Under the pieces are notes generated by a model that saw only the letters and a program-made list of their open reading frames with translations, ran no database searches and was not told where the DNA came from. Of a stretch of DNA of 64,000 bases, positions 4,933 to 27,151 are shown in pieces. The translations under genes were made by a program, and so were the position numbers. The stretch lies in the NCBI RefSeq assembly GCF_022811665.1, contig NZ_CP094529.1:2356001-2420000 (forward strand), read 5' to 3'. The stretch's first letter is position 1; the number at the start of each line of letters is the position of its first letter. The stretch comes from Chryseobacterium oryzae (GTDB lineage: Bacteria; Bacteroidota; Bacteroidia; Flavobacteriales; Weeksellaceae).

Positions 4933-4943
4933 TGATTCTGATA

Positions 4944-6338: not shown

Positions 6339-6350
6339 AAATCTTTAGTT

Positions 6351-8048: not shown

Positions 8049-8079
8049 TGTTTTAATATTATTTTTGATTTTTTTTTGT

Positions 8080-8145: not shown

Positions 8146-8156
8146 TTATTCAAATA

Positions 8157-11100: not shown

Positions 11101-11258
11101 TCTGTGGTTGTACTCACACCGGTTTCTGAAACCGTTACAGTAACGCCACTAAGAGGTTTTTGGTTCGGAGAAACCACTTTGCCCTTCACAATTTCCTGCG
11201 CAAAAATGTAGGAAAACGGAAGCAGACAAAGGGCGATTGCCATTTTATATTTCTTCAT
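8157..11258 (-). CDS. SusC/RagA-family TonB-linked outer-membrane transporter (fructan)
   Basis: This 1033-residue protein has a signal peptide (ending IFAQ), an N-terminal carboxypeptidase-regulatory-like domain (about residues 23-105, VKGKVVSPNQKPLSGVTVTV), the SusC signature DEVVVTGYTKQKKADITGAV, a plug with IRGVGTLNNTDPLYVIDGIP and ASIYGSRAANGVIIITTKKG, and a long beta-barrel ending in an aromatic/hydrophobic strand (FNFGVNLSL). It imports oligosaccharides across the outer membrane with energy from TonB. It starts 12 bp after the GH32 gene stop and precedes its SusD lid. Fructo-oligosaccharide is the inferred substrate. Confidence 0.96.
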   Translation of the reverse strand: MKKYKMAIALCLLPFSYIFAQEIVKGKVVSPNQKPLSGVTVTVSETGVSTTTDNNGAFEINDLQKGNTLVFTYPDYSTQEVVVDEKTVLNITLANDKIKNIDEVVVTGYTKQKKADITGAVSIVEMKDLNKQAEPNPIKSLQGRVAGVNISTDGSPSGGNTKVLIRGVGTLNNTDPLYVIDGIPTKAGMHELNSGDIESMQVLKDASSASIYGSRAANGVIIITTKKGKKGKTRIDLNYYTAFSQYAKKTEVLNAKQFGQVLWQANINDGLNPNLNNLSYNFDWGVQNGVPTLYNSFVPEYLDASKTIKSANTNWYDEVSQTGVANSLDVAASSSSDKGSYYFSMGYYDNDGIVKLTNFKRLSARVNTSYNFFDGKLKIGENFTYTKTNELMDPGVLDPALRALPIIPVRTVDGIGWGGPVGGMNDRQNPVRLLEYNKDNGYRYQRFFGNVYAELQPVKNLTLKSSFGIDFSNYYKRMLQRSYVSGYLQNKTNAVNIDQSDTEKWTWTNTAQYTAKAGKHHFDLLGGMEMYKDIFNNTWLRKEGFLIETPEYMYPDAGTGDAFNGGSSTYYSLLSYFGKFSYDYDNRYLFSATLRYDGSSRFGKNNRFGTFPAFSAGWRINKEDFAEKVIPFFSDFRLRAGWGQTGNQEISNSAVYSLYIANYAGGNPTWATSYGTAYDISGVGSGLLPSGFIATQTKNDDLRWETTTQTNLGLDFGFFNQKLTGSVDIYKKDTKDILVLPPYLGVIGEGGDRWINGASMENKGIEVALGYADKTSGGFGYEISGNFSMNQNAIIELPQSVINNYGGNGTTDNILGKPINSMYGYVADGLFRTQSEVDNSATQPGKGLGRIRYADLNGDGIIDDKDRTWIGNPNPGFMYGVNLNFSYKNFDLSTFWQGISDVDVINSKKYQTDFWSVDDVGSNKGTRLLNAWSPQNSTSDIPALTTVDSNAESRFSSYYVENGSYLKLRVLQLGYSIPKNVLEQYKLTNFRIYISAQNLLTIKSKSFTGIDPETPAFGYPLPLTFNFGVNLSL

Positions 11259-11270
11259 ATGATAGAGTTT

Positions 11271-12824: not shown

Positions 12825-12857
12825 TGGATTATTTTTTCTCGAAGATTTTTGAAGGGT

Positions 12858-14171
12858 TTACTCTTTTGTAAGTGTTTTGCTTAATTTTTCCAGTGATACG
12901 CCTTTGGTTTCCGGCATCATAAAAATCACAAATAATAGCTGGAATACCATTGCGATTGTGAAGACCAGAAACACGGTTCCTGCCCCTATAGTTGAAAATA
13001 ATGTAGGTATTAATGAAGGAATAATCGCTGCTAAAACCCAGTGCGTAGAACTTCCGAATGCCTGTCCTGAAGCGCGGAGGTGGTTCGGAAAGATTTCGGA
13101 GATAAAAACCCAGATCACCGTTCCCTGTCCGATGGCGTGAGAAGCGATAAACAGGAATAAAAATACAGGAATCGCTAAGCCCGACCAATGGAAATAAAAC
13201 GCCATAGAAACGAGTCCCAATGAAATGATATAACCGATGGAACCAATGTACATCAGAGTTCTTCTGCCCACCTTGTCGATAAGATTAACACCAACCAAAG
13301 TGAAAACCATATTCACAATCCCGATTCCGATACTGCTGAGCAATGCGGTTTTCTCGCCCAATCCAGCCTCGCCAAAAATTCTCGGTGCATAATATAAGAA
13401 TGCATTGATTCCCGACATCTGGTTGAAAAATGCGACAAGGAAAGCGAGCATTAACGGAAAACGATATTTTTTCATAAAGATATTTTCCTTTGGTGCTTCG
13501 GCATGATCTTCTTCCATCTGAGAAATTAGTAGGTCAGAATCCTGATCCGGATTTACGGTTTTAACTACATTTTGGGCTTCGTTTATTCTGCCTTTGGAAA
13601 CGAGCCATCTTGGACTTTCCTGAATTATAAGCACACATAAGGTGTAGATAGTTGCCGGAATTGCCTGAACACCAAGCATCCATCTCCAGTCGTTATCTCC
13701 GATTCCGCTGAGTAGATAATTGGATAAAAAGGCAACCAAAATCCCCAGCACAATATTGAACTGATACAAGGAAACCAATCTTCCTCGGTCTTTTGCAGGA
13801 GCGATTTCGGAAATATAAGCCGGAGCTGCAATGGTGGATGCCCCAACGCCTAAGCCTCCCATAAATCTGAAAAATGCGAAGATATAAGGATCATTGGAAA
13901 GCGCTGTTCCGATTGCTGAAAGTGCATATAAGACACCGATTGCCAAAAGTGTTTTTTTACGCCCGAATTTGTTGGTCGGGATTCCGCCAAAGATGGCGCC
14001 GATAACGGTTCCCCACAATGCCATTCCCATTACTACCGCACCGTGGAATGCGTCTGAACTCTGCCAAAGCACCTGTAGTTTTTTGTCGGCTCCGGAAATC
14101 ACCACAACATCAAACCCGAAAAGAAATCCTGCCAAAGCTGCAGTGACAGACCACATCAAAATTTTATTCAT
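12858..14171 (-). CDS. MFS sugar porter, probable fructose importer
   Basis: This 437-residue inner-membrane protein has twelve predicted helices and the sugar-porter family motifs: GFDVVVISGA in helix 1, GRKKTLL after helix 2, PESPRWLVSKGR before the central loop, DKVGRRTLMYIG between helices 8 and 9, and PETKGVSLEKL at the C-terminus. It would bring the fructose released by the periplasmic fructosidase into the cytoplasm, where the fructokinase at the end of the operon acts on it. It is the first gene of the run after the sensor gene. The start is supported by the MNKILMWSVTAALAGFLFGFD N-terminus matching family starts. Confidence 0.92.
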   Translation of the reverse strand: MNKILMWSVTAALAGFLFGFDVVVISGADKKLQVLWQSSDAFHGAVVMGMALWGTVIGAIFGGIPTNKFGRKKTLLAIGVLYALSAIGTALSNDPYIFAFFRFMGGLGVGASTIAAPAYISEIAPAKDRGRLVSLYQFNIVLGILVAFLSNYLLSGIGDNDWRWMLGVQAIPATIYTLCVLIIQESPRWLVSKGRINEAQNVVKTVNPDQDSDLLISQMEEDHAEAPKENIFMKKYRFPLMLAFLVAFFNQMSGINAFLYYAPRIFGEAGLGEKTALLSSIGIGIVNMVFTLVGVNLIDKVGRRTLMYIGSIGYIISLGLVSMAFYFHWSGLAIPVFLFLFIASHAIGQGTVIWVFISEIFPNHLRASGQAFGSSTHWVLAAIIPSLIPTLFSTIGAGTVFLVFTIAMVFQLLFVIFMMPETKGVSLEKLSKTLTKE

Positions 14172-14707
14172 ATATAAATATTTATTATTTTTTATTGATC
14201 AAATGGAGTCGCTCATTCTTTATTGATGTTTGCGTTTACAAACCATAGCGATTTCACCTATTGAAAAATATTACTTTGTTTGTGGCTAATATATCCTAGG
14301 ACAGGAATGCGAAGGTCTAATTATGTAACAAAATATTTCGTCAAGGTTAATTATTTGTTAACTTATTTTAATTAACTGAAAATCAAAATTTTAAAATTGA
14401 TGTAATTTCAAAATATGATAATGATGTTTCAAAAATGTAACATCATTCTATAAAAATGTTACGTGGATTATGAGGATTTTTAGAAGTATGAACGAATGTT
14501 AGTGTGGGAAGATTGACCGAAATTTGAGGTCGGGTTTTTGGAAACTACGGCTTTGGTTTTTATAAGATGAATACTTCGGGCAAGCAATGCATCATTGTTC
14601 ACCTGAACAACGATGTCATATTAGTACCGAGAACGATATCTAGTTCGCACAGATACTGCTACTCTTTATTCGGAAAAGAAAGGAAAAAAATATATACGGA
14701 TTAATTA
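14172..14707. promoter_or_regulatory. Probable control region of the fructan operon
   Basis: These 536 bases lie between the sensor-regulator gene stop and the first structural gene. No coding frame looks real. By position it should carry the promoter and the binding site of the HTCS AraC-type domain. I find no clear TAnnTTTG box on the minus strand. Visible structure includes a hairpin-like inverted repeat at 14590-14615 and a smaller GACCGAAATTTGAGGTC repeat near 14515-14535. Confidence 0.5.
14590..14615. repeat. Inverted repeat TTGTTCA-CC-TGAACAA
   Basis: Two perfect 7-base arms surround a 2-base centre, extended by partly matching CATCA/CGATG flanks. There is no adjacent T tract, so a terminator is unlikely. 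It could be a regulator site, but it lies more than 400 bases from the porter start, which is far for an activator. Confidence 0.4.
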
Positions 14708-17473
14708 TTATTCCTCACCACCACTCTTCCTAAACACGTTTGGAGAAACCCCAAACTTATTTTTGAAAACTGTGGAGAAATAATTCGGGGAAGAAAAGCC
14801 GGTTTTATAAGCAATTTCGGAAATCGTCAATCCTGGATTTTGTAGCATCGATTTCGCCTGTTCCAGACGGATATTGTTGATGTAGTCGCTTACATTCACG
14901 TCAAACATTGCTTTTATTTTTCTGTAAAGCTGAATTCTTGAAATATTCAGTAAATCTGCAAGATTTTCCACTGAAAAATCGGGATTGTCGATATTGGTTT
15001 TGATGATCTGATTCAATTTGTTCACAAACGTCTGCTCCATACTTCCGAAGGATTTGCTGTCCACAATTCTTCCGATGTTGTTGGTGTAATAATAACGTAG
15101 TTTTTCTCGGTTGTAAAGCAACGAACACAGAGACTGTGTCAGGATCGGATAGCTGAATGGCTTCGTAAGATATAGGTCAACCCCGGATTTCAGTCCATGA
15201 AGATAAGATTCCTTATTGTCCAAAGCCGTAAGAAGAATGACCGGAATATGAGATGTTCTGAGGTCATTTTTCAGAATTTCGCAAATTTCAAATCCGTTTT
15301 TTTCAGGAAGATTCACATCGCACACAATGATGTCAGGAATTTCGCTTAGCGCTTTATCAATCGCATCCGTACCATCGGAAACCATCACATCAAATTCCGT
15401 CTGTAGCTTATTGCTGAGGAAAAACGACAAATCCGAATTATCTTCCACCAAAAGCAAAGAATACCGATCACCTGGATTTTCCTGGATTTGCATAAAACTT
15501 CCTTCTTCCACCATGCCAAAAACATCTTCTTTTGCTAACGTTTCCGCATCCATAACACTCGGTTCTTTTATCATCTGATCTTCATTGAAATGCTTGTTTC
15601 CTTTGTAAAGGCTGATGATAAATTCCGTTCCTTGAAAAGAACTCACCTCGATTTTCCCGCGATGAAGCTCCACAAACTGACGACTAAGATGAAGTCCAAT
15701 TCCTGAACTGTTTTTGCGGTTGTTGGAACCTTTAAAATAGGGTTCGAAAACGTTGCTGATTTCTTTTTCTGGGATTCCTATACCGTTGTCTTTGAAGCTG
15801 ATAACCACCTGATTTCCTTTTTCCTGAATTGTAATTTCAATTTTTCCATTGTCCGGCGTGAATTTAAATGCGTTTGACAAAAGGTTAAAATATACTTTAT
15901 CCATCAGGTTTCTGTCAATATACAGTTCTAGATTTTTGTTTGTGGAATGGATTTCAAACTTAATATTCCTTTTTTTGGCTTCGTTTTCAAAATCCCTGAA
16001 AATGCCATAAGTGAAATCGTAAATATTGGTTTTGGAAACCCTTAAATTGAAGGTTTTATTTTCTATTTTCCTGAAATCCAAAAGATTATCTACCAACCTT
16101 AGCAAACGGTTTGAATTTTTATTAATCAGTTCCAGCTCATAAGACGGTTTTGTACCCTTGCTTTTAAAAGTATCTTTCAATGATTCTAATGAACTCAGGA
16201 TGAGGGTTATTGGTGTTTTGAATTCGTGGGATAAGCCGGTAAAAAAGTTTACTCTTGCTTCATTACTTTCCTTGAGTTCGTTGGCAATGGTTTCAATCTG
16301 ATTCCTTTGAATCGTCACACGTTCGTTGGTGAGAGTAAGCTGTTTATTTTTAATTTTAATGGTATAAATCAGGTAAATAGCATAGGCAATCAGGCAAAAC
16401 ATCAGAATTAGAAGTACAACTGACCATCGGAACAATTCTCTTTGGGAAGAATAGAGTTCGGTCTGCTTTTTCACGGCATTCACCTGATTTTCGATCACTC
16501 CCTGCTGTTCGATGATTTTATCGAACTGGTTGCGCATAATCTCAGCATTCAGCCTGTCGATAATGGTTGTACTGAGCTTGATACGTTTCGGTGGAATTTG
16601 CCCGTGGTAGATTTTAATGGCAGTTTCAATGGCTTCCGTTCCGCCGGTAGGATAAAGTAAAGTGGCATTCAATTTACCGTCAAGAACCATCTGAATTCCA
16701 CCGTCTTTGGTGTTCAGACCATCCACACCGATAAATTTGATTTGATTTTCCACACCGGCGTTTCTCGCTATTTGCCATGCTTGTGTAGCGAGTTGGTCAT
16801 TGAAAGCAAAAACATATAAGCTTTGATTTCCGAGTGAATCCAGCGTTTTCCTGAAAGCCTCTGCCGGAAGACCTCGGACGGTTTTTATCAGCTCTGTATT
16901 AGGATTATTTTTGATGATTTGCTCGAAACCCAAACTCCTTTCAATCGTTGGGGACGAATTGTCATCGCCTTTTATTTCGATGATTTTTTTCAGATTTTTA
17001 GAGTCAGAAAGAATATATTGCGCTGCTTCTTTCCCAATTTCTATATTATCTGCTCCGATATAAGTGGCGTATCTATCAGAATTGATTTTCCTATCCACCA
17101 AAATCACAGGAATCTTTTTTGCAAAGGCTTTTTCTACTACTGGAATCAGAGAATTGGGGTCAATCGGCGAAATAATGATAACATCTACCCTGCTGTCAAT
17201 CATTTTTTGAATATCCTGAATCTGTTTTTTGACAGAACCTTCCGCTTTGCTAATGCTCAGATGCACTTCAGAATGCAGTGATGCCTGAATCTCCATTGCG
17301 TGGTTCATAGCCTGCCGCCAAGGATGATTGCCCAACCCTTGCGAGAAGCCGATATTTATTTTATCCGATTTTGTTGAAGCATCCTTGCAACCATGCAAAA
17401 TCATCAGCAACAAAAATAAAACGGTACCAACCTTGGGAAAACCAAACGTTCTAAAAAGTTTTTTCATGGACAT
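14708..17473 (-). CDS. Hybrid two-component system sensor-regulator (HTCS) with periplasmic sugar-binding domain
   Basis: This 921-residue protein joins a whole signalling path. An N-terminal export signal is followed by a type-I periplasmic binding protein domain (about 37-320; INIGFSQGLGNHPWRQ, IISPIDPNSL, IGVDGLNTKDGG). A membrane helix lies near 350-373, then HisKA (LSHEFKTPITLIL), HATPase (NLLSNAFKFTPDNG, DNGIGIP), a receiver domain (about 680-795, DIIVCDVNLPEKNG with the phospho-accepting Asp) and a C-terminal AraC helix-turn-helix (LLNISRIQLYRKI, IAYKTGFSSPNYFSTVFK). In Bacteroides thetaiotaomicron the fructan locus regulator BT1754 has the same layout and senses fructose. The upstream position supports control of this operon. 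The ATG at 17467 is an equally good start. Confidence 0.95.
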   Translation of the reverse strand: MSMKKLFRTFGFPKVGTVLFLLLMILHGCKDASTKSDKINIGFSQGLGNHPWRQAMNHAMEIQASLHSEVHLSISKAEGSVKKQIQDIQKMIDSRVDVIIISPIDPNSLIPVVEKAFAKKIPVILVDRKINSDRYATYIGADNIEIGKEAAQYILSDSKNLKKIIEIKGDDNSSPTIERSLGFEQIIKNNPNTELIKTVRGLPAEAFRKTLDSLGNQSLYVFAFNDQLATQAWQIARNAGVENQIKFIGVDGLNTKDGGIQMVLDGKLNATLLYPTGGTEAIETAIKIYHGQIPPKRIKLSTTIIDRLNAEIMRNQFDKIIEQQGVIENQVNAVKKQTELYSSQRELFRWSVVLLILMFCLIAYAIYLIYTIKIKNKQLTLTNERVTIQRNQIETIANELKESNEARVNFFTGLSHEFKTPITLILSSLESLKDTFKSKGTKPSYELELINKNSNRLLRLVDNLLDFRKIENKTFNLRVSKTNIYDFTYGIFRDFENEAKKRNIKFEIHSTNKNLELYIDRNLMDKVYFNLLSNAFKFTPDNGKIEITIQEKGNQVVISFKDNGIGIPEKEISNVFEPYFKGSNNRKNSSGIGLHLSRQFVELHRGKIEVSSFQGTEFIISLYKGNKHFNEDQMIKEPSVMDAETLAKEDVFGMVEEGSFMQIQENPGDRYSLLLVEDNSDLSFFLSNKLQTEFDVMVSDGTDAIDKALSEIPDIIVCDVNLPEKNGFEICEILKNDLRTSHIPVILLTALDNKESYLHGLKSGVDLYLTKPFSYPILTQSLCSLLYNREKLRYYYTNNIGRIVDSKSFGSMEQTFVNKLNQIIKTNIDNPDFSVENLADLLNISRIQLYRKIKAMFDVNVSDYINNIRLEQAKSMLQNPGLTISEIAYKTGFSSPNYFSTVFKNKFGVSPNVFRKSGGEE

Positions 17474-17549: not shown

Positions 17550-17756
17550 ACGCATCAAAATCCGCCCAAGACATTCAATAAAGGCCAAATCTATGGTGGA
17601 TTGATTTTCGGTTTTGGCTGGGCGATTACTGGCGCTTGTCCCGGACCACTTTTTGCACAGATCGGAACCGGAGCTTTGGCGGTTATCATTACTTTGGCTA
17701 GTGCCATTTTCGGAACTTGGGTGTACGGTTATTTTAAAGAAATATTGCCTCATTAA
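17550..17756 (+). pseudogene. C-terminal remnant of a YeeE/YedE-like (DUF6691-type) transporter
   Basis: The plus-strand frame reads NKGQIYGGLIFGFGWAITGA, then CPGPLFAQIGTGAL and ends GTWVYGYFKEILPH. This is the last membrane hairpin of the small YeeE/YedE sulfur-transport-like proteins, with the GACPGP motif. Only about 68 codons are open; the frame meets a stop at 17547-17549 and no suitable start codon precedes it. The usual length is about 140-190 residues, so the front half and any partner gene are missing. It is followed directly by an intrinsic terminator, as an intact gene would be, which suggests a deletion took the 5' part. Confidence 0.75.
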
Positions 17757-17770
17757 AATCTTAAATCGAC

Positions 17771-17819: not shown

Positions 17820-18515
17820 CTATGCCACAGAAACTCCAAAAAGATGTCCTATCAAAGCAGTAATTCCCATGGCAACAGTTCCCCAGAAACAGATTCTCAG
17901 AACGGCAATTCCGATTTTTGAACCACCGGTCCTTGCTGAAATCGCTCCTAAGATCATTAAAAACATAATGGAAAATCCATACTGGAAATAGACCATTTGT
18001 TTAAGCGGTGCCAAAAGCGAGACGGCAAAGGGAAGCAATGCTCCCAAACCAAATGAAGCAAATGATGCGAACGCAGCCTGCAAAGGTTTTGCCTGTGTGA
18101 TTTCATTAATTCCCAATTCATCGTGAGCGTGAGCTGCCAAAGCATCGTGATTCGTAAGTTCGGTCGCCACTTGCAAGGCAGTTTCTTTGCTTACACCTCT
18201 CCTTTCGTAGATTTTTGCAAGCTCTCTTAATTCTATTTCAGGCATTTCTTCAAGCTCACGTTTTTCTCTTAGCAAATCTGCTTTTTCTGTATCTTCCTGC
18301 GAACTTACTGATACATATTCTCCTGCGGCCATCGACATTGCACCGGCAATCATTCCGGCTAACGCTGCAAGGATTATCGTATTTCTATCCGGAGAAGCTG
18401 CCGCAACTCCAATAACAATACTTGTGGTAGACAACAAACCGTCATTCGCTCCTAAAACCGCTGCACGAAGCCATCCTACTCTATTAACATAATGTTTTTC
18501 TAATTGATGATGCAT
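17820..18515 (-). CDS. VIT1/CCC1-family iron/manganese transporter
   Basis: The start chosen is the ATG at 18515 (MHHQLEKHYVNRVGWLRA), giving 231 residues; a TTG 33 bases upstream is less likely. The family pattern is clear: GANDGLLSTTSIVIGVAAA in helix 1, AGMIAGAMSMAAGEYVSVSSQ in helix 2, a charged cytoplasmic segment rich in Glu (about 80-150; ELREL..IYERRGVSKETA) that binds metal in plant VIT1, and three more helices in the second half. These proteins move Fe2+ or Mn2+ out of the cytosol. It is transcribed leftward and is separated from the DUF3570 operon by a terminator. Confidence 0.92.
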   Translation of the reverse strand: MHHQLEKHYVNRVGWLRAAVLGANDGLLSTTSIVIGVAAASPDRNTIILAALAGMIAGAMSMAAGEYVSVSSQEDTEKADLLREKRELEEMPEIELRELAKIYERRGVSKETALQVATELTNHDALAAHAHDELGINEITQAKPLQAAFASFASFGLGALLPFAVSLLAPLKQMVYFQYGFSIMFLMILGAISARTGGSKIGIAVLRICFWGTVAMGITALIGHLFGVSVA

Positions 18516-18577: not shown

Positions 18578-19747
18578 CTATTTGAATCTAAAATTTAACG
18601 AAATAATATCAGAAGTCATCCCGACAGATTTCGTGTAATGTCCGTATCTGATTTCCAGCATATTTAATCTTTCTACGCCAAACAGACCATTTTTAGGATT
18701 AAATCTAATTCCTGCACCGTAAAAATTACTGTTGAATTTAGACAAATCATAATTGCTCGTATAATAATCGTCGAAAGCCATATGTTGTTGGTAAGGTAAA
18801 AAATATTTCGCTGCAGTTTGCGAATAATACCTGTAAAAAGGTGTCACAGAAACAAAAGGCGAAATTTTAAAAGGCGTTTCCAGACTCACAGTGTTCGATT
18901 TCAATCCCCAATCGTCGGTGTAATACCTGTAATACGCTCTCAAAATCACTTTATCTCCAAGAAAATAATTCGCTCTCACACCAACCGGAAGTTTAAACCT
19001 TTTATCAGGCAATGTTTCCTGATGAACCGAATTATCATTAAAATATACCCTGTGAAATGGCAAACTTAAATAACCCGTCTGTTGAACGGCATCGGTAAGA
19101 AATTCCATCTGGAAATTCTGATTGATAATCTGTGAATACGCCAAAGACAGAGCATAGGTATTTCTTCCACTCGTTCCTTCATTTTGGGCAGTTCTGAGCT
19201 CGATGGGAGCAATCAACTTCACTTGGTCAAAATAGGCTTGGAATTTTGCGGTAAATTCTCCCATTTTGTTTGGTGTTTTTTTCGCAAAACCAATATTAGC
19301 GCTATAAGACTGATAATCATATTCTGTAGAAGCCGAAACTCCCGCCAAAAGTGTTGTTCCTTTGTTTTCGTTTTCACGGCTCCAGCTTAGTGCAGGATAG
19401 ATTCTAGTATCTGCGTGAGAAGCGGAAGAATTGGCTTTCAAATCAATCATATCCGAAGAAGCCGACGTGTAATGGTCTATCCCGACACTGAAACCAAACT
19501 TATTTTTCCTGTCTTTTTTATCATATTTTACCAGAGTAACATCGATAGCATTCGAGATGTCGTTGAGCTTTTCAGAACCCGTTCCTCCCGTTACCGCAGA
19601 ATTATTCCCGTCTTGCTTATAATAACTTGAAACCAAATTGGCTTCATCCAGCGTTAGTTTTTTCGGTTGTGTATTGCCTGTATTCTCCTGTGCTTTTGCA
19701 TTGAAAATTCCTAAAAGAGCAACAATACTTACTATAATTTTTTTCAT
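18578..19747 (-). CDS. DUF3570 outer-membrane beta-barrel protein
   Basis: This 389-residue protein has a signal peptide (MKKIIVSIVALLGIFNAKAQ) and then many alternating amphipathic strands ending in ISLNFRFK, as expected of an outer-membrane barrel. It matches what I know of DUF3570, including the N-terminal NSAVTGGTGSEKL segment (residues 49-61). It is the last gene of a four-gene run with a thioredoxin-like protein, ApbE and a DUF4266 lipoprotein. The TGGT at residues 53-56 faintly resembles the [ST]GA[TS] site where ApbE attaches FMN, so this protein is a possible flavin acceptor; that is a guess. No biochemical role is known to me. Confidence 0.85.
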   Translation of the reverse strand: MKKIIVSIVALLGIFNAKAQENTGNTQPKKLTLDEANLVSSYYKQDGNNSAVTGGTGSEKLNDISNAIDVTLVKYDKKDRKNKFGFSVGIDHYTSASSDMIDLKANSSASHADTRIYPALSWSRENENKGTTLLAGVSASTEYDYQSYSANIGFAKKTPNKMGEFTAKFQAYFDQVKLIAPIELRTAQNEGTSGRNTYALSLAYSQIINQNFQMEFLTDAVQQTGYLSLPFHRVYFNDNSVHQETLPDKRFKLPVGVRANYFLGDKVILRAYYRYYTDDWGLKSNTVSLETPFKISPFVSVTPFYRYYSQTAAKYFLPYQQHMAFDDYYTSNYDLSKFNSNFYGAGIRFNPKNGLFGVERLNMLEIRYGHYTKSVGMTSDIISLNFRFK

Positions 19748-19780
19748 TTTAAATCACAATTAAATTTTATTGCTACTATT

Positions 19781-20014
19781 TTAGTTGCAACCGCAACCAC
19801 CACCTACTTTTCCGGCATTGGCTCCTGAAGAACCTTCTCTGTACGACTGAAAACTGAGTTCTGTTTTTTCCACAGTTCTGTTCCCTAAAGCCATTTCGGC
19901 GTCGTTCAGTTTGTTTTTTTCGTATTCTTTTACGGTGGTGCAAGATTGCACTAAAGCAACGATTGCCAAAAAACACACCGTCATTTTTATTTTAGTTATA
20001 CTATTTCTTTTCAT
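19781..20014 (-). CDS. DUF4266 small lipoprotein with Cys-rich C-terminus
   Basis: This 77-residue protein carries a lipoprotein signal with the lipobox LVQSC (Cys25). The mature part has the VKEYEKNKLNDAEMAL segment and ends in GSSGANAGKVGGGCGCN, features of DUF4266. It overlaps the end of the apbE gene by 4 bp and lies 33 bp upstream of the DUF3570 gene, so the three are translated together. The Cys-Gly-Cys tail could bind metal or form a disulfide handled by the thioredoxin-like protein. SSGA at 62-65 recalls an ApbE flavinylation motif, but the next residue is Asn rather than Thr or Ser, so FMN attachment here is unlikely without a variant site. Confidence 0.85.
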   Translation of the reverse strand: MKRNSITKIKMTVCFLAIVALVQSCTTVKEYEKNKLNDAEMALGNRTVEKTELSFQSYREGSSGANAGKVGGGCGCN

Positions 20015-20937
20015 TTTAAATTGATGTTTTGAGATGAATAAATCTTATTATAATCATCGATAATGACGCATTCTAAATGGTTGATTTGATTCACCATATT
20101 CAGTGCGGCATCGATTCCCATAATACTTACCGGAGTTGCCATTGCATCAGCGATTTCTGCATTAGGACAGAAAATGGTGACACTTTTCACGCCCGAAACG
20201 GGCATTCCGGTTTTTGGATTGATGGTGTGAGAATATTTTTTTCCGTTGATGACTACGAATTTTTCATAATTTCCCGACGTTGCAACCGCCATATCTGTGA
20301 TGTTCATATAAGAAAATGGCTGTTTTGAGTTGTCCGGGTCTGCAATTCCGACTGTCCAAGGTTTTCCGTTGGCTTGATTTCCCCAAGTCGTCAAATCTCC
20401 GGAAGCATTTACAATACCGGAAACCACGCCTCTTTGCTGAAGAATTCTTTTCGCCATTTCTGCGGCATAGCCTTTCCCGATTCCGCCAAAACCAATGCGC
20501 ATCCCTTTTTCTTTGAGAAAAACGTTTTGATTGACTGAATATAGAATGATGTTTTGATAATTCACCAATTGCAGATGACTTTTTATCAATTCTGGGTTGG
20601 GAAGCTGCGTCATTTCACGGTCAAAATTCCAGAAACTTTTATCGATTCCTCCGTAGGAAATATCGAAATACCCATCGGTAATTTTGCTGATTCTGATGCT
20701 TCTTTCAATCAAATCAAAAATCTCAGCATCTACTTTTACAGGTTGTATCCCTGCATTTCGGTTGATGAGATTGGTTTGACTTTCTTCATTAAAAGTTGTT
20801 AACAGCCTTTCAATTCTGCGAATTTCTTCAATGGCAGCATCGATATGAAGGTTTGCCCAAGTTTCGTTGTCGTCAACAACGGTAATTTCAAAAGCGTTCC
20901 CCATCAGTTTTTGAGGTCTTTTGAATTCTCTCCACAT
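20011..20937 (-). CDS. apbE: FAD:protein FMN transferase (ApbE family)
   Basis: This 308-residue protein has the ApbE motifs: LMGNAFEITVV at the start, FGGIGKGYAAEMAKRIL near 154-170, VNASGDLTTWG, VATSGNYEKF near 219, the metal/flavin site SHTINPKTGMPV near 237, and AEIADAMATPVSIMG near 260. ApbE moves FMN from FAD to a Thr or Ser of an exported protein. No signal peptide is visible at the chosen start, which is odd for an enzyme that normally acts outside the cytoplasm. It lies 6 bp after the thioredoxin-like gene and overlaps the DUF4266 gene by 4 bp. Its acceptor is probably encoded next door. Confidence 0.93.
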   Translation of the reverse strand: MWREFKRPQKLMGNAFEITVVDDNETWANLHIDAAIEEIRRIERLLTTFNEESQTNLINRNAGIQPVKVDAEIFDLIERSIRISKITDGYFDISYGGIDKSFWNFDREMTQLPNPELIKSHLQLVNYQNIILYSVNQNVFLKEKGMRIGFGGIGKGYAAEMAKRILQQRGVVSGIVNASGDLTTWGNQANGKPWTVGIADPDNSKQPFSYMNITDMAVATSGNYEKFVVINGKKYSHTINPKTGMPVSGVKSVTIFCPNAEIADAMATPVSIMGIDAALNMVNQINHLECVIIDDYNKIYSSQNINLK

Positions 20938-20943
20938 ATTCGT

Positions 20944-21390
20944 CTAAGGTTTTTGGTTGTCTTTAATGTCTCTGATCTCTTTACTGAACGCTAAAGCATC
21001 GCCGGAAATAAGACCTTCCCAACTTTTCAGAATTTTACCTTCCGAGTTTAGCAAAATCGTGTAAGGAAAAATTCCTTTTTGATTGTATTGGTCGGCAAGA
21101 GAAGCATTTTCTTTCTTGAGTTCTGCCTTAAGCTGATTCTTTTTGTTTCTCGGAAAATCTGCATTGAGATAAACAATGACATTATCGGTTTCCAACTTCT
21201 TGAAGTCTTCGGTTTCGATAATATTTTTATGAAGTTTGATGCACGGAATACACCAATCTGAACCGGAAAAATTAAGCAGAATAAGTTCGTTTTTTTCTGC
21301 AGCGATTTTTTTTGCGTTTTCCCATCTGTTTTGAGCATTGAAAACGACTGAAAACACAACCAAAAACAGGGTTGAAAATATTGTCTTCAT
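20944..21390 (-). CDS. Periplasmic thioredoxin-fold protein
   Basis: This 148-residue protein has a signal peptide (MKTIFSTLFLVVFSVVFNA) and a thioredoxin fold with the active site SDWCIPCIKLHKNI (CxxC near residues 47-50) and a cis-proline loop at GIFPYTILL. It belongs to the thioredoxin_7 / DUF255-like group. It is the first gene of the run with ApbE, DUF4266 and DUF3570, and probably keeps cysteines of the DUF4266 tail or another partner reduced. No other function can be read from the sequence. Confidence 0.88.
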   Translation of the reverse strand: MKTIFSTLFLVVFSVVFNAQNRWENAKKIAAEKNELILLNFSGSDWCIPCIKLHKNIIETEDFKKLETDNVIVYLNADFPRNKKNQLKAELKKENASLADQYNQKGIFPYTILLNSEGKILKSWEGLISGDALAFSKEIRDIKDNQKP

Positions 21391-21460: not shown

Positions 21461-21850
21461 TTATGAAAACAGAATTCTAGGTGGTTCCCAAACTGAACTT
21501 TTAAAACCCTTCAGGCAAAAGTCTTCATCCTTAGATAAAATTTTAGGTGATTTCAGAAGGTTTAGAAAATCCTTTTTAAATTCAAACTCGAAATTTTGAT
21601 TAACTGTAAAAACCAAAACCAATGGTTGAGAATGCATCACAAAAGGAAGTTTCTGATCTTTCCCATAATCTCCATCTTTTGCAGGATGTTCGTAATGGGT
21701 TTTGAGAAAAGCCACCAAAGGCATTTCCGGATTGAGCGCTTTATGCTCAAAGTAATGCTCTACAAGTGTAGGAATTTTTAAAAGCTGATATAGTTCGGTT
21801 GTAGAAACCAAAAACAAAGTAAGCAAAACTATGGAAATCAACTTTTTCAC
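21461..21850 (-). CDS. Small secreted protein, paralogue of the protein at 22101-22463
   Basis: This 129-residue protein has an N-terminal hydrophobic signal (MKKLISIVLLTLFLVSTTEL). It shares with the divergent neighbour at 22101 the series LLKIPTLVEHY, FLKTHYEHP, DQKLPF, KDF and a final PPRIL. The mature part has several His and acidic residues. I do not recognise a named family. Because two copies flank the start of a metal efflux operon, a periplasmic role in metal response is plausible. It is leftward, 70 bp before the thioredoxin-like gene, so it might also be the promoter-proximal gene of that run. Confidence 0.7.
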   Translation of the reverse strand: MKKLISIVLLTLFLVSTTELYQLLKIPTLVEHYFEHKALNPEMPLVAFLKTHYEHPAKDGDYGKDQKLPFVMHSQPLVLVFTVNQNFEFEFKKDFLNLLKSPKILSKDEDFCLKGFKSSVWEPPRILFS

Positions 21851-22100
21851 TACTCAAATTTAAATAATTTTAAGTTAAGAACGATTTTAAATAATTTTAG
21901 ATTGTATAGAAATTATAAAAAACAAATGATTATTTCAACCATTCAACACATTTAAAATTTCCTCTATATACTCTATGAATTAAAATATTATCGACGAAAG
22001 CCAAACAACTCTGACTTCATCATAAAATGTGTCATTTTTGTTTTATAATTTATTAACTTAGAATTTCTCGAACAATTAAAAAACGACTATCTTTGCACCA
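21851..22100. promoter_or_regulatory. Divergent promoter region between two paralogues
   Basis: This 250-base AT-rich spacer must hold promoters for both the leftward and the rightward small secreted protein genes. On the plus strand TATCTTTG at 22088-22095 fits the Bacteroidota -7 consensus TAnnTTTG and lies only 5 bases before the ATG at 22101. No matching -33 box is clear. Confidence 0.4.
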
Positions 22101-22463
22101 ATGTTAAGATGGTTCTCCATACTATGTTTGATGATTTATGTACTTGCAACAACCAATGTAGCGGAAGTATTAAAAACACCTGTCTTAATAGAACATCTAA
22201 TGGATTATCAAGGAAGCTTTTCCGAGTTTTTGGTGGAACATTACGATAATCATCAACCCGATTCAGATTGGGATACAGACCAGAAGCTACCGTTTTTCAA
22301 TCCTCCGATTGTCCTGATGGTTTACGCAAAACTTCCGGAAACCACTTTTCACATAGAACAAATCAAGGAGATCATTATTTCTCAAAAACCAACTGTTTAT
22401 CAGGAAAAAGACTTTTCCAGCAGTTATCTTTCCCGTATTTTCCAGCCTCCTCGCTTTTGTTAA
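22101..22463 (+). CDS. Small secreted protein upstream of the metal efflux pump
   Basis: This 120-residue protein starts with a hydrophobic signal (MLRWFSILCLMIYVLATTNV) and carries the same landmarks as the product of 21461-21850: VLKTPVLIEHLM, FLVEHYDNH, DTDQKLPF, KDFSSSYLS and a final QPPRFC. The His/Asp-rich middle (EHYDNHQPDSDWDTD) could bind a metal ion. It is 82 bp upstream of the CzcA-like pump and runs in the same direction, so they may be co-transcribed. Function unknown; a metal chaperone or sensor for the efflux system is an inference from position. Confidence 0.75.
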   Translation: MLRWFSILCLMIYVLATTNVAEVLKTPVLIEHLMDYQGSFSEFLVEHYDNHQPDSDWDTDQKLPFFNPPIVLMVYAKLPETTFHIEQIKEIIISQKPTVYQEKDFSSSYLSRIFQPPRFC

Positions 22464-22545
22464 TTGATTTTTAATTTAAATATCAGTGTTTTAGGATTTC
22501 TTTCTAAAGCAGTTGATTTCTATTTAATTCAATTAATAAATTTTT

Positions 22546-25500
22546 ATGTTAAATAAAATTATTGAGTTTTCTGTAAAGAATAAACTCATTATTGTGCTGT
22601 TTACCATTGCGCTTATCCTTTTTGGAATTTATGAAACCACCAAACTTCCTATCGATGCACAACCTGATATTACGAGTACTCAGGTTCAGATTATTACTGT
22701 TGCGCCTTCTTACGGCGCTGCAGATATCGAACGTCTCGTAACTTTTCCTATCGAGCAGGCAACCAGTAACATCAGCGGAATTACCCAAATCCGCAGTTTT
22801 TCACGTTTTGGATTGTCGTTGATTACAATTGTTTTTGATGATGATACTGATGTGTATTGGGCTCGTCAACAAGTTCAGGAACGATTACAACTGGTTCAGG
22901 AAAATATTCCTGCAGGCATCGGAAAACCTGAATTAGGACCTATTTCATCCGGTTTGGGAGAAATTTTCCAATATGTTGTAAGACCTAAAAAAGGATACGA
23001 ACACGTTTATGACGAAACCGAACTCAGAACCATTCAGGATTGGGTGATTCGCCGACAGTTATTAGGCACGAAAGGCGTTGCCGATGTCAGCAGTTTTGGA
23101 GGTAAGTTAAAACAATACGAAATTGCCATTAATCCCAATCAATTACAGGCTTTTAACATCAATATCAATGATGTTTTTGATGCCTTGGAGAACAATAATC
23201 AAAATACTGGAGGCGCTTATATTGAGAAAAGAGAAACCGTCCTTTTTATCCGTAGTGAAGGACTTTTAGGAAGCACAGAAGACATCGGAAATATTCAGGT
23301 TTCGAGTACAAAAGAAGGAATTCCTGTTCATATTAAAGATGTAGCGAAGGTAAAAATAGGTTTCGCAACCCGTTACGGAGCAATGACTTACAACGACAAA
23401 GGCGAAGTTTCCGGAGCAATCGTAATGATGCTGAAAGATGAAAATGCCAATGAAGTCGTTGGAAATATTAAAGAAAAATTAGAAAAAATTCAGGAATCAT
23501 TACCGGAAGGTGTTGTGATTGAACCGTTTTTGGACAGAGCTAAAATGGTGAATAACACGATTAGTACGGTAAAAACCAACTTAATGGAAGGCGCATTAAT
23601 CGTCGTTTTCATTCTGGTTTTATTCCTCGGAAATTTCAGAGCGGGATTATTGGTCGCTTCCGTCATTCCTTTGGCGATGCTTTTTGCCATTATTATGATG
23701 AATATTTTCGGAGTTGGAGGAAATTTAATGAGTCTCGGAGCTTTAGATTTCGGATTGATTGTGGATGGTGCCGTGATTATTGTGGAAGCCGTTCTGCATC
23801 AATTAGCCCACAAAAAACATTTTGGAAAAGACAATATACTTTCAAAAGCTGAAATGGACGGTCAGGTTTCCAGTTCAGCAACAAAAATGGTCAACAGTGC
23901 GGTTTTCGGACAAATCATTATTTTAATTGTTTACTTACCAATTTTTACGCTTCAGGGAATTGAAGGAAAAATGTTCAAACCAATGGCACAAACCGTTGCT
24001 TTTGCGTTGATTGGAGCATTTTTATTATCATTAACCTACATTCCGATGATGAGTTCTTTGGTGTTGAGCCGAAAGAAAAAAACAAAAGACAATGTTTCTG
24101 ACAGAGTGATGGCGAAAATTGAAATCGGTCATCAGAAATTATTAATTAAAGCTTTAAAATTCAGAAAAACAATTATTGCAACAGTAATTATTTTGTTTGC
24201 AGGAGCGGTTTTCGTGCTTTCAAAAATGGGTGGAGAATTTATTCCGTCTTTGGAGGAAGGCGATTTTGCGGTTGAGATGAGAATTCTTCAGGGAAGTAAT
24301 ATCGAAGAAACAAAAAAAGCCACAACTAAAGCTTCGAAAATTTTATTAAAACAATTTCCGGAAGTTCAGAAAGTCGTGATGAAAATCGGAAGTGGAGAAA
24401 TTCCGACCGACCCAATGCCGATGGATGGTGGCGATATGATTGTCGTTTTAAAACCTAAAAAAGAATGGACTTCCGCACACTCATTTCCTGAACTTTCAGA
24501 TAAAATGAATGAAGCATTACAAGTCATTCCAGGACTTACTGCAAGTTTTCAGTTTCCGGTTCAGATGCGTTTCAATGAACTGATGACGGGAGCAAAACAG
24601 GATGTGGTCTGTAAAATTTATGGCGAAGATTTGGACAGTTTGGCGACTTACGCTAAAAAGTTAGGAGGAATTATTTCAACAGTCAATAGCGCTCAGGATT
24701 TGTATTTAGAACCTGTCGTCGGAGCTCCGCAAGTTGTGATTGATTATAATCGCGCCGAACTTTCACGCTACAATATTTCCGTTGCAGAAATTAACAGAGT
24801 TATCAATATGGCTTTTGCAGGTCAAACTGCAGGTGCTCTGTATGAAGGCGAAAGGAAATTCGATGTGGTCGTAAGAATGGATCAAGAGCACAAAAAAGAC
24901 ATTTCAAGCATTCAAAATCTGTTGGTTCCAACGCCTAATGGGGAACAAATTCCGTTGTCGCAACTGGCAAAAGTGGAATTAAGAGAAAGTCCAAATCAGA
25001 TTCAGAGAGAAAATACCAAACGTAGAATTGTGATTGGGTTTAATGTTCGTGGAAGAGACGTTCAGAGTATTGTGGAAGAGCTTCAGCAGAAAGTTAACAA
25101 AGATTTGAAGTTATCTGCAGGTTACACGATTTCTTATGGCGGTGCTTTTGAAAATTTAAATCAAGCCAAAGCAAGATTAGGAATTGCCGTTCCGATTTCT
25201 TTGGTAATGATTTTCTTATTGCTGTTCTTCGCTTTCGGTTCTGTAAAACATAGTTTGCTGATTTACACTGCAATTCCGTTGTCCGCAATTGGTGGGATTT
25301 ACTTTTTAGCATTAAGAGGAATGCCTTTCAGTATCAGTGCGGGAGTTGGATTTATTGCTCTTTTTGGAGTAGCAGTTTTAAACGGAATTGTTTTGATTTC
25401 AGAATTCAACAGATTGAAAAAAGATGGAGTAACCAACTTAAGCCGAATTGTTTTGATGGGAACAAGAATCCGTCTTCGTCCGGTTCTGATGACGGCTTTC

Positions 25501-25698
25501 GTGGCTTCTTTAGGATTTTTACCAATGGCAATCAGCAACGGAGCTGGTGCAGAAGTGCAACGACCTTTGGCAACCGTGGTTATCGGAGGCTTGATGTTGG
25601 CAACACTTTTAACCTTGTTCGTTTTGCCGATTCTTTATGTCTTATTTGAACGAATCAGTAAAAAGAAAAAGTTTAATAAGATTAAAGAAAACAGTTAA
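22546..25698 (+). CDS. czcA: CzcA-type heavy-metal efflux RND pump
   Basis: This 1050-residue inner-membrane protein has the RND plan of twelve helices and two large periplasmic loops. The helix-4 motif is LDFGLIVDGAVIIVE, with Asp401, Asp407 and Glu414. The equivalent residues in Cupriavidus CzcA (Asp402, Asp408, Glu415) are needed for transport, and this Asp-containing form marks pumps for divalent cations rather than Cu/Ag-type CusA, which has a different motif. Cobalt, zinc, cadmium or nickel are therefore likely substrates. The TolC-like and adaptor genes follow at 25936 and 27152, completing a tripartite system. Confidence 0.93.
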   Translation: MLNKIIEFSVKNKLIIVLFTIALILFGIYETTKLPIDAQPDITSTQVQIITVAPSYGAADIERLVTFPIEQATSNISGITQIRSFSRFGLSLITIVFDDDTDVYWARQQVQERLQLVQENIPAGIGKPELGPISSGLGEIFQYVVRPKKGYEHVYDETELRTIQDWVIRRQLLGTKGVADVSSFGGKLKQYEIAINPNQLQAFNININDVFDALENNNQNTGGAYIEKRETVLFIRSEGLLGSTEDIGNIQVSSTKEGIPVHIKDVAKVKIGFATRYGAMTYNDKGEVSGAIVMMLKDENANEVVGNIKEKLEKIQESLPEGVVIEPFLDRAKMVNNTISTVKTNLMEGALIVVFILVLFLGNFRAGLLVASVIPLAMLFAIIMMNIFGVGGNLMSLGALDFGLIVDGAVIIVEAVLHQLAHKKHFGKDNILSKAEMDGQVSSSATKMVNSAVFGQIIILIVYLPIFTLQGIEGKMFKPMAQTVAFALIGAFLLSLTYIPMMSSLVLSRKKKTKDNVSDRVMAKIEIGHQKLLIKALKFRKTIIATVIILFAGAVFVLSKMGGEFIPSLEEGDFAVEMRILQGSNIEETKKATTKASKILLKQFPEVQKVVMKIGSGEIPTDPMPMDGGDMIVVLKPKKEWTSAHSFPELSDKMNEALQVIPGLTASFQFPVQMRFNELMTGAKQDVVCKIYGEDLDSLATYAKKLGGIISTVNSAQDLYLEPVVGAPQVVIDYNRAELSRYNISVAEINRVINMAFAGQTAGALYEGERKFDVVVRMDQEHKKDISSIQNLLVPTPNGEQIPLSQLAKVELRESPNQIQRENTKRRIVIGFNVRGRDVQSIVEELQQKVNKDLKLSAGYTISYGGAFENLNQAKARLGIAVPISLVMIFLLLFFAFGSVKHSLLIYTAIPLSAIGGIYFLALRGMPFSISAGVGFIALFGVAVLNGIVLISEFNRLKKDGVTNLSRIVLMGTRIRLRPVLMTAFVASLGFLPMAISNGAGAEVQRPLATVVIGGLMLATLLTLFVLPILYVLFERISKKKKFNKIKENS

Positions 25699-25935
25699 AA
25701 ATATCTGGGTAAAATAACTTAGAATTTATCCTTGTTTTCCTCAATAAATGAAGTGGCATTGTTTATCTTAAAAAAGAATCCAATACATAATCTTTGTTTG
25801 ACCTTGCGATAATTTAAAGGCAAAGAAATACAAAGTTTTCTTAAAAATGAAACTTTATAATTAAGATATACAAAGGCGTTTCACTTAAAATAGAAAGACA
25901 AGTTTTAGATAGAAAAAGTCTTTAAAATAAATACA

Positions 25936-27144
25936 ATGAAATTTTCAAACAATCATAAAAAACTGACTGCATTCTTATTTCTGATTTCTTTCGGAATGAT
26001 GAATGCACAGGAAAACATTACCTATGAACAAACTCTGGAAAAAGCTTTTCAACAAAACAGAACTTTAAAAAACTCAAAATTAATTTCTGAATATCAGGAA
26101 AAATTAAAGGCAAGTTATCTCGATATTCCGCAAACGGAAGTCAGTGCGCAAATCGGACAGATGAACGGTGTGGAAACTGATAATTCTTTTTCTATTTCCC
26201 AGCGTTTCAGCTTTCCGACGGTTTATGCCAAAAGAAAACAAATGCTGGATGCAGAATGGAATGCAAGTGTCATCAATCAAAATCTGACGAAAGCGCAATT
26301 AACAAAGGAAGTTTCCGATGTTTTTTACCGAATTCTGACACTTCAGGAAAAGAAGAAGGTGATTGAATATATCACCAAATTATACAGCAGTTTTGCAGAA
26401 AAAGCGAGTTTGAGACTGAAAAAAGGTGAAACCAATATTTTGGAAGAGTCAACAGCGGAAATTCAGAGCGAACAGGCAAAAACGCAACTGAATATGCTTG
26501 AAAATGATTTGAATATCGCTAAACTTCAGCTTCAGTTATTGCTTCAGTCCGAAGAAAAATTTCAACCAGTTTCGGACAAACCGATGATGAATATTAATCT
26601 TCAGGTTTCGGAAGAAATGGTTCAGCAACATCCTGAATTGCAATATTTAAATCAGCAGATTAAAATCAATGATGCAGAAGCTCAGCTCGAAAAATCTAAA
26701 TTATTACCGGATTTATTGGTTGGATATACAAATCAAAGTATGAAAAACCTTAATAACAATCGTTTTAATGCGGTTCAGGTCGGTGTGGGAATTCCTTTGT
26801 TTACGAAAGGTCAACGAGCTTTGGCAAAAGCAACGAAAGCGAAAGTGGCGATTTCTGAAAACCAATATCAATTAAAAGAAATTGAACTGAAAAACAGATT
26901 CGGACAGCAAATTAATAATTACACCAATCAACTGAAAATCGTTGATAATTATGAGCAAAAACAACTTCCAAAATCTGAAACAATTTTAAAAACGGTTCAA
27001 AAACAATTGGAAGTCGGCGAAATCGATTATCTGAACTGGGTAATTCTTACGAATCAGGCGGTAAAAACAAAGGTTGATTACATCGATAATCTCGAAAGAC
27101 TCAACCAAATCGGAGCAGAACTTAATTTCTTACTATCAAAATAA
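25936..27144 (+). CDS. TolC-family outer-membrane channel of the metal efflux system
   Basis: This 402-residue protein has a signal peptide (ending MMNAQ) and two repeats of long amphipathic helices with strands, as in CzcC/TolC proteins: LEKAFQQNRTLKNSKL, VGVGIPLFTKGQRALAKATKAK, and a C-terminal VDYIDNLERLNQIGAELNFLL. It lacks a lipobox. It is 237 bp after the pump and 7 bp before the adaptor gene. It forms the exit duct through the outer membrane. The gap to the pump contains a weak hairpin near 25829-25857 but no clear terminator. Confidence 0.9.
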   Translation: MKFSNNHKKLTAFLFLISFGMMNAQENITYEQTLEKAFQQNRTLKNSKLISEYQEKLKASYLDIPQTEVSAQIGQMNGVETDNSFSISQRFSFPTVYAKRKQMLDAEWNASVINQNLTKAQLTKEVSDVFYRILTLQEKKKVIEYITKLYSSFAEKASLRLKKGETNILEESTAEIQSEQAKTQLNMLENDLNIAKLQLQLLLQSEEKFQPVSDKPMMNINLQVSEEMVQQHPELQYLNQQIKINDAEAQLEKSKLLPDLLVGYTNQSMKNLNNNRFNAVQVGVGIPLFTKGQRALAKATKAKVAISENQYQLKEIELKNRFGQQINNYTNQLKIVDNYEQKQLPKSETILKTVQKQLEVGEIDYLNWVILTNQAVKTKVDYIDNLERLNQIGAELNFLLSK

Positions 27145-27151
27145 CAGCGAA

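Follow-up and report, generated by a model that had tools for sequence, protein, structure and literature searches.

A gene for ApbE, the FAD:protein FMN transferase, lies in the window (the whole 64,000-nucleotide stretch of DNA analyzed here) within a cluster that raises two questions, namely, which protein receives the FMN and what the resulting flavoprotein does. The sequence-only reading had proposed an ApbE-based extracytoplasmic redox module of a kind recurring in Bacteroidota, an idea that was right in outline and is already in print, since the available text of Méheust 2021 (PMC8238504) describes such clusters. According to that text, the DUF3570 protein of Chlorobium (C. luteolum) is flavinylated by its own ApbE at two [S/T]GA[S/T] motifs, and there is a class of clusters with a thioredoxin-like (Trx) protein and DUF4266 that includes 316 lacking DsbD and 25 that contain VIT1. 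The window cluster belongs to this DUF3570/DUF4266/thioredoxin flavinylation class. With a probability of about 0.6, we read the module as an electron relay that runs from thiols to flavin and terminates at the outer membrane.

A conserved four-gene operon

The cluster runs from 21390 to 18578 on the minus strand in the order Trx-ApbE-DUF4266-DUF3570, and all four genes were found in the operon where they had been placed, with Pfam scores above the cut-offs. They encode a Trx protein of 148 aa with a signal-peptide-like leader and a CIPC motif (20944..21390; Thioredoxin_2, 39.6 bits, and Thioredoxin_7, 35.1 bits), an ApbE of 308 aa without a signal peptide (20011..20937; PF02424, 274.5 bits), a small lipoprotein-like DUF4266 protein of 77 aa with a lipobox-like LVQSC and the C-terminal sequence GGGCGCN (19781..20014; 66.1 bits), and a DUF3570 predicted outer-membrane barrel of 389 aa that is the putative flavin acceptor (18578..19747; 109.9 bits). 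The earlier estimate of 4- to 33-bp spacing is close to the gaps of 6 bp between Trx and ApbE and 33 bp between DUF4266 and DUF3570, but ApbE and DUF4266 overlap by 4 bp. The single terminator that had been claimed corresponds to a terminator-like hairpin 3' of DUF3570 (18566-18538, minus strand; 13 pairs, 3 of them G-C, followed by a T run), which is weak evidence alone because five such sites were found compared to a mean of 3.7 in shuffled sequences.

All four genes were present together in 106 of 121 DUF4266-bearing regions and in all 37 regions from the window's family, so the arrangement is not due to chance; these loci were sampled through DUF4266 matches, with regions lacking DUF4266 left out, 120 regions were fetched with some DUF4266 places, chiefly of Chlorobiaceae, omitted, and the rows are kin to one another, so the counts are not independent. 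Within the window's genus, ApbE was found in 12/12 genomes with DUF4266 and in 0/12 genomes without it. Among 148 family genomes, 38 contain an ApbE of the cluster type, scoring above 400 bits, and DUF4266 is found in 37 of those 38. Against the relay, one genome (G400) has a cluster-type ApbE while the other three genes are absent from the surrounding 12 kb.

DUF3570 is the likely flavin acceptor

Ser221, His237, and Asp264 of the window ApbE align with the Ser, His, and Asp of solved ApbEs, residues given as the ApbE catalytic triad in the available text of PMC12052999. Genome-wide profile searches identified only this one ApbE in the source genome and no match to either FMN_bind or NqrB/RnfD proteins, so that the earlier remark that no usual acceptor lies nearby extends to the whole genome for these families.

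The suggestion that DUF3570 may be the acceptor pointed in the right direction, given the flavinylation of DUF3570 reported in the text of PMC8238504, and we regard DUF3570 as the likely flavin acceptor. We aligned 123 of 125 DUF3570 open reading frame matches, excluding those of <340 residues or <200 bits, which dropped the two pieces of a split gene (L165); the label Chlorobiaceae used for one group of rows (f18) was taken from matching contigs. In this alignment, the first candidate site, D91-H-Y-T-S-A-S97 (19457..19477, minus strand), is in the register D-x-x-[ST]-x-A-S with the Chlorobiaceae DSVSGAS, and the second, S107-S-A-S110 (19418..19429, minus strand), aligns with the second Chlorobiaceae SGAS where that is present. 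A96 and S97 are each kept in 121/123 rows, the latter as Ser, and both are invariant in an 82-row DUF3570 alignment, while position 110 is Ser in 36/36 family rows, 48/55 other rows, and 18/32 Chlorobiaceae rows. Thus, on the alignment, S97 and S110 occupy columns homologous to the Chlorobiaceae flavinylation motifs and would be the residues that carry FMN.

Several features of these sites count against the relay. No literal [S/T]GA[S/T] was found in the window DUF3570; TSAS and SSAS have Ser where the published motif has Gly, with [ST]-x-A-S kept at both. The second site is without the Asp of the extended motif, D-x-x-[S/T]-G-A-[S/T]. The 55 rows that belong neither to the family nor to Chlorobiaceae have D91 replaced by Ser in 15 cases, a motif that begins with Ala in 4, and S97 replaced by Ala in 2. 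In favor of the relay are the effects described in the available text of PMC12052999, the source of the extended motif, where replacing its Gly with Ala lowers flavinylation to about 50% and replacing its Asp with Ala has a minor effect.

The sequence-only reading had placed the acceptor elsewhere, at T56 or T53 of DUF3570 or within the SSGAN segment of DUF4266. Both quoted segments, DGNNSAVTGGTG in DUF3570 and SSGAN in DUF4266, are present; there is a loose similarity of SAVT and TGGT to the motif, and the loop 1 segment that contains them (D46 to S58, DGNNSAVTGGTGS; 19574..19612, minus strand) has glycines that are largely conserved outside Chlorobiaceae and lies on the same modeled side of the barrel as S97 and S110. 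However, position 56 is Thr in 8/123 aligned proteins and Ile in 50, and position 53, which is Thr in 70/123, is occupied by Met or Gly in 6/36 family rows and is a gap in 18/32 rows of Chlorobiaceae, from which the demonstrated case of flavinylation comes. For DUF4266, [S/T]GA[S/T] was found in 0/122 proteins, and at the place of SSGAN a pattern that caught 118 of them gave 79 with Asn and 13 with Ser, the latter in SGGS or GGTS. Conservation of the TGGT and SSGA segments, on which that proposal had been staked beforehand, was therefore not found, and a Thr of loop 1 or a Ser or Thr of DUF4266 is a highly improbable acceptor. The companion check, on the C-terminal Cys pair of DUF4266, did show conservation, with CGC in 122/122 proteins, that of the window included. 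The CxPC motif is similarly found in 112/113 Trx proteins.

Both candidate sites lie in one loop of a modeled barrel

The AlphaFold2 model of DUF3570 (pLDDT 89.5, pTM 0.82) is a closed 16-strand barrel that matches solved outer-membrane barrels over its whole length, and its even strand number, closure, and signal-peptide-like leader are those of an outer-membrane beta-barrel. Outer-membrane barrels have both chain ends in the periplasm. This rule, the gap lengths (mean of 13 versus 5), and the end-to-end matches to known barrels together orient the model, in which the loop that holds both S97 and S110 would be extracellular. Residues conserved in ≥90% of rows crowd the site end of the barrel (mean height of 0.78 versus 0.60; P of 0.003 by random draws, with A96 and S97 included). 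This loop is also the least confident part of the model, which counts against the relay.

The window ApbE lacks an export signal

By a hydrophobicity rule of our own, which was used for all leader calls in place of SignalP and in a looser, ATG-only form for Trx, DUF4266, and DUF3570, the window ApbE has no signal peptide or lipobox. There is no room for a leader, since an in-frame TAG lies two codons 5' of its ATG. ApbE was also leaderless in 86/112 cluster ApbEs, in 37/37 of the window's family, and in 38/40 of a locus set that is nearly all Chlorobiaceae, while its cluster partners mostly have leader-like starts, including 37/37 family Trx proteins. In the ApbE tree, two separate branches are leaderless throughout, one of 21 Chlorobiaceae rows and the other a 65-row clade that includes the window. 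Other lineages have kept an exported ApbE, either leader-bearing or fused to Trx; among the best 120 database matches to one such fusion (from locus L120), 118 contain both domains, and 91 of those 118 have a leader-like start. Neither leaderless cluster ApbEs nor exported Trx-ApbE fusions were met in the portions of the literature searched.

These data lead us to propose, tentatively and at somewhat less than even odds, that this module's ApbE is a cytosolic enzyme and that FMN is bonded to the barrel before its export. An unfolded, flavin-carrying DUF3570 precursor would then pass through Sec and reach the cell surface for assembly with the flavins already in place, and FAD export would therefore no longer be needed. 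Somewhat less probable is that ApbE in this lineage is periplasmic after all, whether it is exported in some other way or arises as an occasional read-through product of Trx and ApbE. The exported fusions fit that alternative, as does the Trx stop being in frame with the ApbE open reading frame in 18/37 family members, the window included; the C. luteolum apbE was, in the text of PMC8238504, cloned much like a signal-peptide-truncated one, which may imply a leader there. Read-through is opposed by the frame, which is not conserved and was 0 in 24/84 pairs, about what chance would give. Since some lineages have a leaderless ApbE and others an exported one, matched natural comparisons of the two are available.

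Neighboring genes and the path of electrons

A gene for a VIT1-family transporter (17820..18515, minus strand; 230.5 bits, with the start taken from a relative, the open reading frame itself reaching 18548) adjoins the window module. Across five family codes, 39/121 loci have VIT1 at a distance of no more than 2.7 kb and always on the same strand; it is downstream in 28 of these and upstream in the other 11. Against the relay, VIT1 was not found in the remaining 82 of the 121 regions examined, and in the window the hairpin lies between DUF3570 and VIT1. The window module is also adjoined by genes for an RND pump and an adaptor of the CusB/HlyD type, and an RND-like family, judged by eye, recurs in 22 loci. 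No DsbD was found within the window cluster; the one genomic DsbD over cut-off is unlinked (G000:C1:2768591, 91.6 bits), about 0.39 Mb from the module. A DsbD gene in the cluster is not required, since 316 clusters of the class are listed without one in the text of PMC8238504, and a linked, same-strand DsbD was found in 19 loci, all of Chlorobiaceae.

The relay is supported here by the gene set, the homologous sites, the single ApbE, co-inheritance, VIT1 linkage, the barrel model, and the absence from the genome of the two commonest substrate families. We infer the path and direction of electrons, and a role in iron, as follows. A DsbD-type membrane reductase, encoded elsewhere, would pass electrons to the exported Trx-like protein, and from this they would move to DUF4266, a lipoprotein that would receive them at its CGC pair. 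The next carriers would be FMN groups that ApbE would have bonded to the DUF3570 barrel at Ser97 and Ser110, and the final acceptor would be extracellular, with ferric iron or a different metal the likeliest candidate. The portions of the literature searched contained no electron-transfer measurement on any module member.

The available texts of PMC7762939 and PMC4902296 present bacterial relatives of VIT1, such as MbfA, as exporters of iron, which does not agree with simple uptake and counts against the relay. Their activity, with the RND pump and adaptor beside the module and the RND-like genes of other loci, raises the prospect that the role of the flavin barrel is in metal homeostasis or efflux and not in iron assimilation. 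VIT1 would then remove Fe2+ or Mn2+ from the cytosol, and the chain of flavin and thiols would set the redox state of metal that leaves or meets the envelope. We consider this account unlikely; the RND linkage is a simple count of loci, and a flavin on the outer face would suit reduction of something outside better than it would suit export. Electrons might also flow the other way, with the flavin oxidizing the DUF4266 and Trx thiols in a thiol-oxidation or repair device, as direction is not readable from sequence. This seems less probable still, since the linked DsbD in 19 Chlorobiaceae loci points to electron supply and the models that Trx matches in NCBIfam, each with a score under its cut-off, are those for DsbH, TsoB, thioredoxin, and DsbD.

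Comparison with known systems

Flavinylated proteins may rival cytochromes as electron carriers of the envelope, and how an outer-membrane barrel gains flavins, and on which face, is not stated in the portions of the literature searched. The window member offers precise candidate sites, S97 and S110, and a structural prediction that places them in one loop, putatively on the outer face. Compared to the module in the available text of Méheust 2021, it has the same adjacent ApbE, DUF3570 (PF12094), Trx-like (PF13899), and DUF4266 (PF14086) genes, with ApbE as the FMN transferase and DUF3570 as the proposed substrate, the same CXC end on DUF4266, and the VIT1 neighbor of some clusters. It differs in having no adjoining DsbD and in its motif, [ST]SAS rather than that text's [S/T]GA[S/T]; the leaderless ApbE, the Trx-ApbE fusion, and a Rieske neighbor are further differences, none of which was found by term searches of the text of PMC8238504.

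The Chlorobiaceae modules (e.g., of Chlorobium and Chlorobaculum) share a homologous barrel, with motif columns that align to S97 and partly to S110, and a commonly leaderless ApbE, but they have the order Trx-DUF4266-DUF3570-ApbE (21/21 scored), DsbD adjoining in 19 loci, and SGAS-type motifs. The window member raises the question of whether flavin is attached inside the cell and then carried out with the chain. Its ApbE resembles the Klebsiella cytosolic ApbE that serves a soluble fumarate reductase, as described in the text of PMC12052999, in that both are without a signal peptide; in contrast to the cytosolic Klebsiella substrate, that of the window would be a leader-bearing, predicted outer-membrane barrel.

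A published flavinylation module in the window

We found that the minus-strand cluster at 21390-18578 genuinely belongs to a flavinylation module already described in print. Pfam confirmed its four genes, which encode a thioredoxin-like protein (21390-20944), ApbE (20937-20011), a DUF4266 lipoprotein-like protein (20014-19781), and DUF3570 (19747-18578), separated in gene order by a 6-bp gap, a 4-bp overlap, and a 33-bp gap. A terminator-like hairpin (18566-18538, minus strand) follows DUF3570, and a VIT1-family transporter starts just past it on the same strand. Full-text literature searches under the DUF names led to a single paper, Méheust et al. 2021 (PMC8238504). Its passages on these families report that Chlorobium luteolum DUF3570 receives flavin from its cognate ApbE, that modification is abolished only when both predicted [S/T]GA[S/T] sites are changed, and that the clusters contain a thioredoxin-like protein and a DUF4266 protein with a conserved CXC end. 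The sequence-only reading, which had proposed a flavin-based redox module, was thus right in kind but had rediscovered a class already in print.

An RND pump (22546-25698) and a CusB/HlyD-type adaptor (27074-28303) adjoin the module (region 21461-28303), with an ORF between them that is channel-like by eye. Two mutually resembling ORFs of 120 aa (22101-22463) and 129 aa (21461-21850) lie on opposite strands and matched no Pfam or NCBIfam family; the 129-aa ORF was found again in 12 loci. Positions 2476-17473 hold what we take, from labels assigned by eye, to be a fructan/levan use locus, with GH32-like proteins, a SusC/SusD-like pair, a sugar transporter, a fructokinase-like protein, and a hybrid sensor. 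A short open stretch on the plus strand (17560-17757) resembles a YeeE/YedE transporter's C terminus, has no N-terminal part in view, and is perhaps a remnant.

Candidate acceptor sites in DUF3570

DUF4266 matches were present in 103 of 392 phylum genomes and 37 of 148 family genomes; 120 regions fetched around such matches, with the window, gave 121 loci. In an alignment of 123 DUF3570 rows (out of 125 ORF hits), D91-HYTSAS97 of the window protein (site 1) aligned with the Chlorobiaceae motif DSVSGAS, and A96 and S97 were each kept in 121 rows. The second Chlorobiaceae SGAS aligned with SSAS of the window (site 2, S110), a column that is Ser in 36/36 family rows, 18/32 Chlorobiaceae rows, and 48/55 other rows; in several Chlorobiaceae proteins the second motif lies at another place. 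At the place of the first motif's Gly, the window and most rows outside Chlorobiaceae have Ser, position 95 being Ser in all 36 family rows and 51 of the 55 others, and Gly in all 32 Chlorobiaceae rows. The relevant part of a review writes this motif D-x-x-[S/T]-G-A-[S/T] and states that Gly-to-Ala lowers flavinylation to about 50% and that Asp-to-Ala has minor effects (PMC12052999), so compatibility of Ser at the Gly place with flavinylation is plausible, if unproved. Counter to this tidy picture, among the 55 other rows D91 is Ser in 15, the first motif residue is Ala in 4, and S97 is Ala in 2.

The acceptors proposed from sequence alone were not supported, and the earlier chemistry was correct in kind and wrong as to site: T56 of DUF3570 is Thr in 8 of the 123 rows and T53 in 70, and none of 122 DUF4266 proteins contains [S/T]GA[S/T].

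An AlphaFold2 model of DUF3570 from an 82-row alignment (pLDDT, 89.5; pTM, 0.82) has 16 strands by our own count and matches solved barrels end to end, and the matches listed by a fold search are generic outer-membrane barrels only. Both sites fall between strands 3 and 4, in a gap of low confidence (residues 96-99 and 105-111 under 50). If both barrel ends are taken as periplasmic, as in the matched structures, this loop would be extracellular. Gaps average 13 residues on the site side versus 5 on the other, and the 26 residues conserved at ≥90%, which include A96 and S97, are skewed toward the site end (mean height, 0.78, versus 0.60 over every scored residue; P = 0.003 from random draws).

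Co-inheritance of the module genes

DUF3570 is likely the only ApbE substrate in the window genome (3.24 Mb, 99.98% complete), which falls in the Chryseobacterium/Epilithonimonas group judging from what its nearest protein matches are called. This genome has one ApbE match, and a search covering two substrate families, FMN_bind and NqrB/RnfD, found neither. Within the genus, ApbE is present in 12/12 genomes with DUF4266 and 0/12 without it. Cluster-type ApbEs, defined as matches over 400 bits, occur in 38 of 148 family genomes, and 37 of these have DUF4266; in the exception (G400), thioredoxin, DUF4266, and DUF3570 are absent within the 12 kb around ApbE (L184, G400:C9:12000-24000). Some ApbE is found in 89 of the 148 genomes, so part of the family's ApbEs are outside this module. 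DUF3570 fragments persist in four genomes lacking DUF4266 (G449, G490, G493, and, weakly, G512), and none of the other module genes was found around three of them, which suggests joint decay of the whole module. At a separate locus (L165, genome G396), an in-frame stop splits DUF3570 into two open pieces beside the other three module genes.

Electron supply and metal link

DsbD occurs in some published clusters and is absent in 316 others, according to the section on them (PMC8238504); the main text of a 2024 follow-up (PMC11334425) names neither DsbD nor thioredoxin. In the window genome, the one DsbD over the cut-off is found in a 713-residue open frame away from the module. Nineteen Chlorobiaceae loci have a DsbD next to the module and on its strand. 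In 13 loci of four family codes (L092, L086, L090, L083, L084, L074, L077, L080, L082, L085, L099, L103, and L113), the gene immediately upstream of the module, on the same strand, encodes a relative of a small Rieske protein (one representative tested in Pfam, 40.3 bits), a possible extra electron carrier; the main text of the eLife paper (PMC8238504) does not mention Rieske.

In 39/121 loci, from five family codes, VIT1 lies within 2.7 kb of the module; it shares the strand of the module in every case and is found downstream in 28 and upstream in 11. This repetition in two positions strengthens the metal link beyond the 25 clusters with VIT1 counted in print (PMC8238504, cluster section). 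Since VIT1 relatives can be exporters, as stated in the pertinent part of PMC7762939, a role of the module in metal assimilation is not established.

ApbE export and the place of flavin attachment

In the window, the TAG that ends the thioredoxin gene is in frame with ApbE and lies two codons before its start, which makes a leader impossible. Under a rule that scored as a leader any hydrophobic stretch following an ATG, GTG, or TTG codon upstream of the domain, 86/112 ApbEs were leaderless: 37/37 in the family, 20/21 in Chlorobiaceae, where the exception (L140) looks spurious, and 29/54 elsewhere. The other 25 of these 54 have a clear leader, which in one (L120) heads a thioredoxin-ApbE fusion. 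By a looser, ATG-only rule, leaders were found on 110/113 thioredoxins, 118/122 DUF4266 proteins, and 108/120 DUF3570 proteins. Of 40 ApbEs from a second, overlapping set of loci in named records, 38 were leaderless, among them the enzymes of Chlorobium ferrooxidans, Chlorobaculum thiosulfatiphilum, and Novimethylophilus. Two of the loci with DUF3570 and a leaderless ApbE (L244 and L266) come from Novimethylophilus and from a MAG of Gallionellaceae, both of which belong to a phylum other than that of the window.

In a quick ApbE tree, whose depth is unsure owing to long branches, leader-bearing, fused, and leaderless forms grouped with four changes in all, giving two separate leaderless branches (21 and 65 rows) and a lone leaderless ApbE (L122) among fused ones. 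Among the best 120 database matches (P0244-P0363) to the exported single-chain fusion (L120:4060-5430), 118 had both domains, 91 of them with a leader-like start; judged by such starts, exported fusions are common. The fusion linker often retains a Met and the sequence that begins free leaderless ApbE. ApbE is thus clearly exported in some lineages and apparently not in that of the window.

PMC8238504 describes E. coli coexpression with signal-peptide-truncated DUF2271 constructs; for DUF3570 of C. luteolum together with the cognate apbE, it speaks of a "similar cloning strategy". This suggests that cytosolic modification of a DUF3570 is possible, but the wording may also mean that a leader had been noticed on that apbE. 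Sec reportedly lets chains bearing rigid attachments through, with an opening of as much as 2.4 nm (PMC6028853, in a passage citing Bonardi 2011), so export of a flavin-bearing chain would be physically conceivable. Among the literature matches listed for leaderless or cytosolic ApbE, only the review PMC12052999 names ApbE; the cytosolic ApbEs that it describes come from Klebsiella and eukaryotes and act on fumarate reductases.
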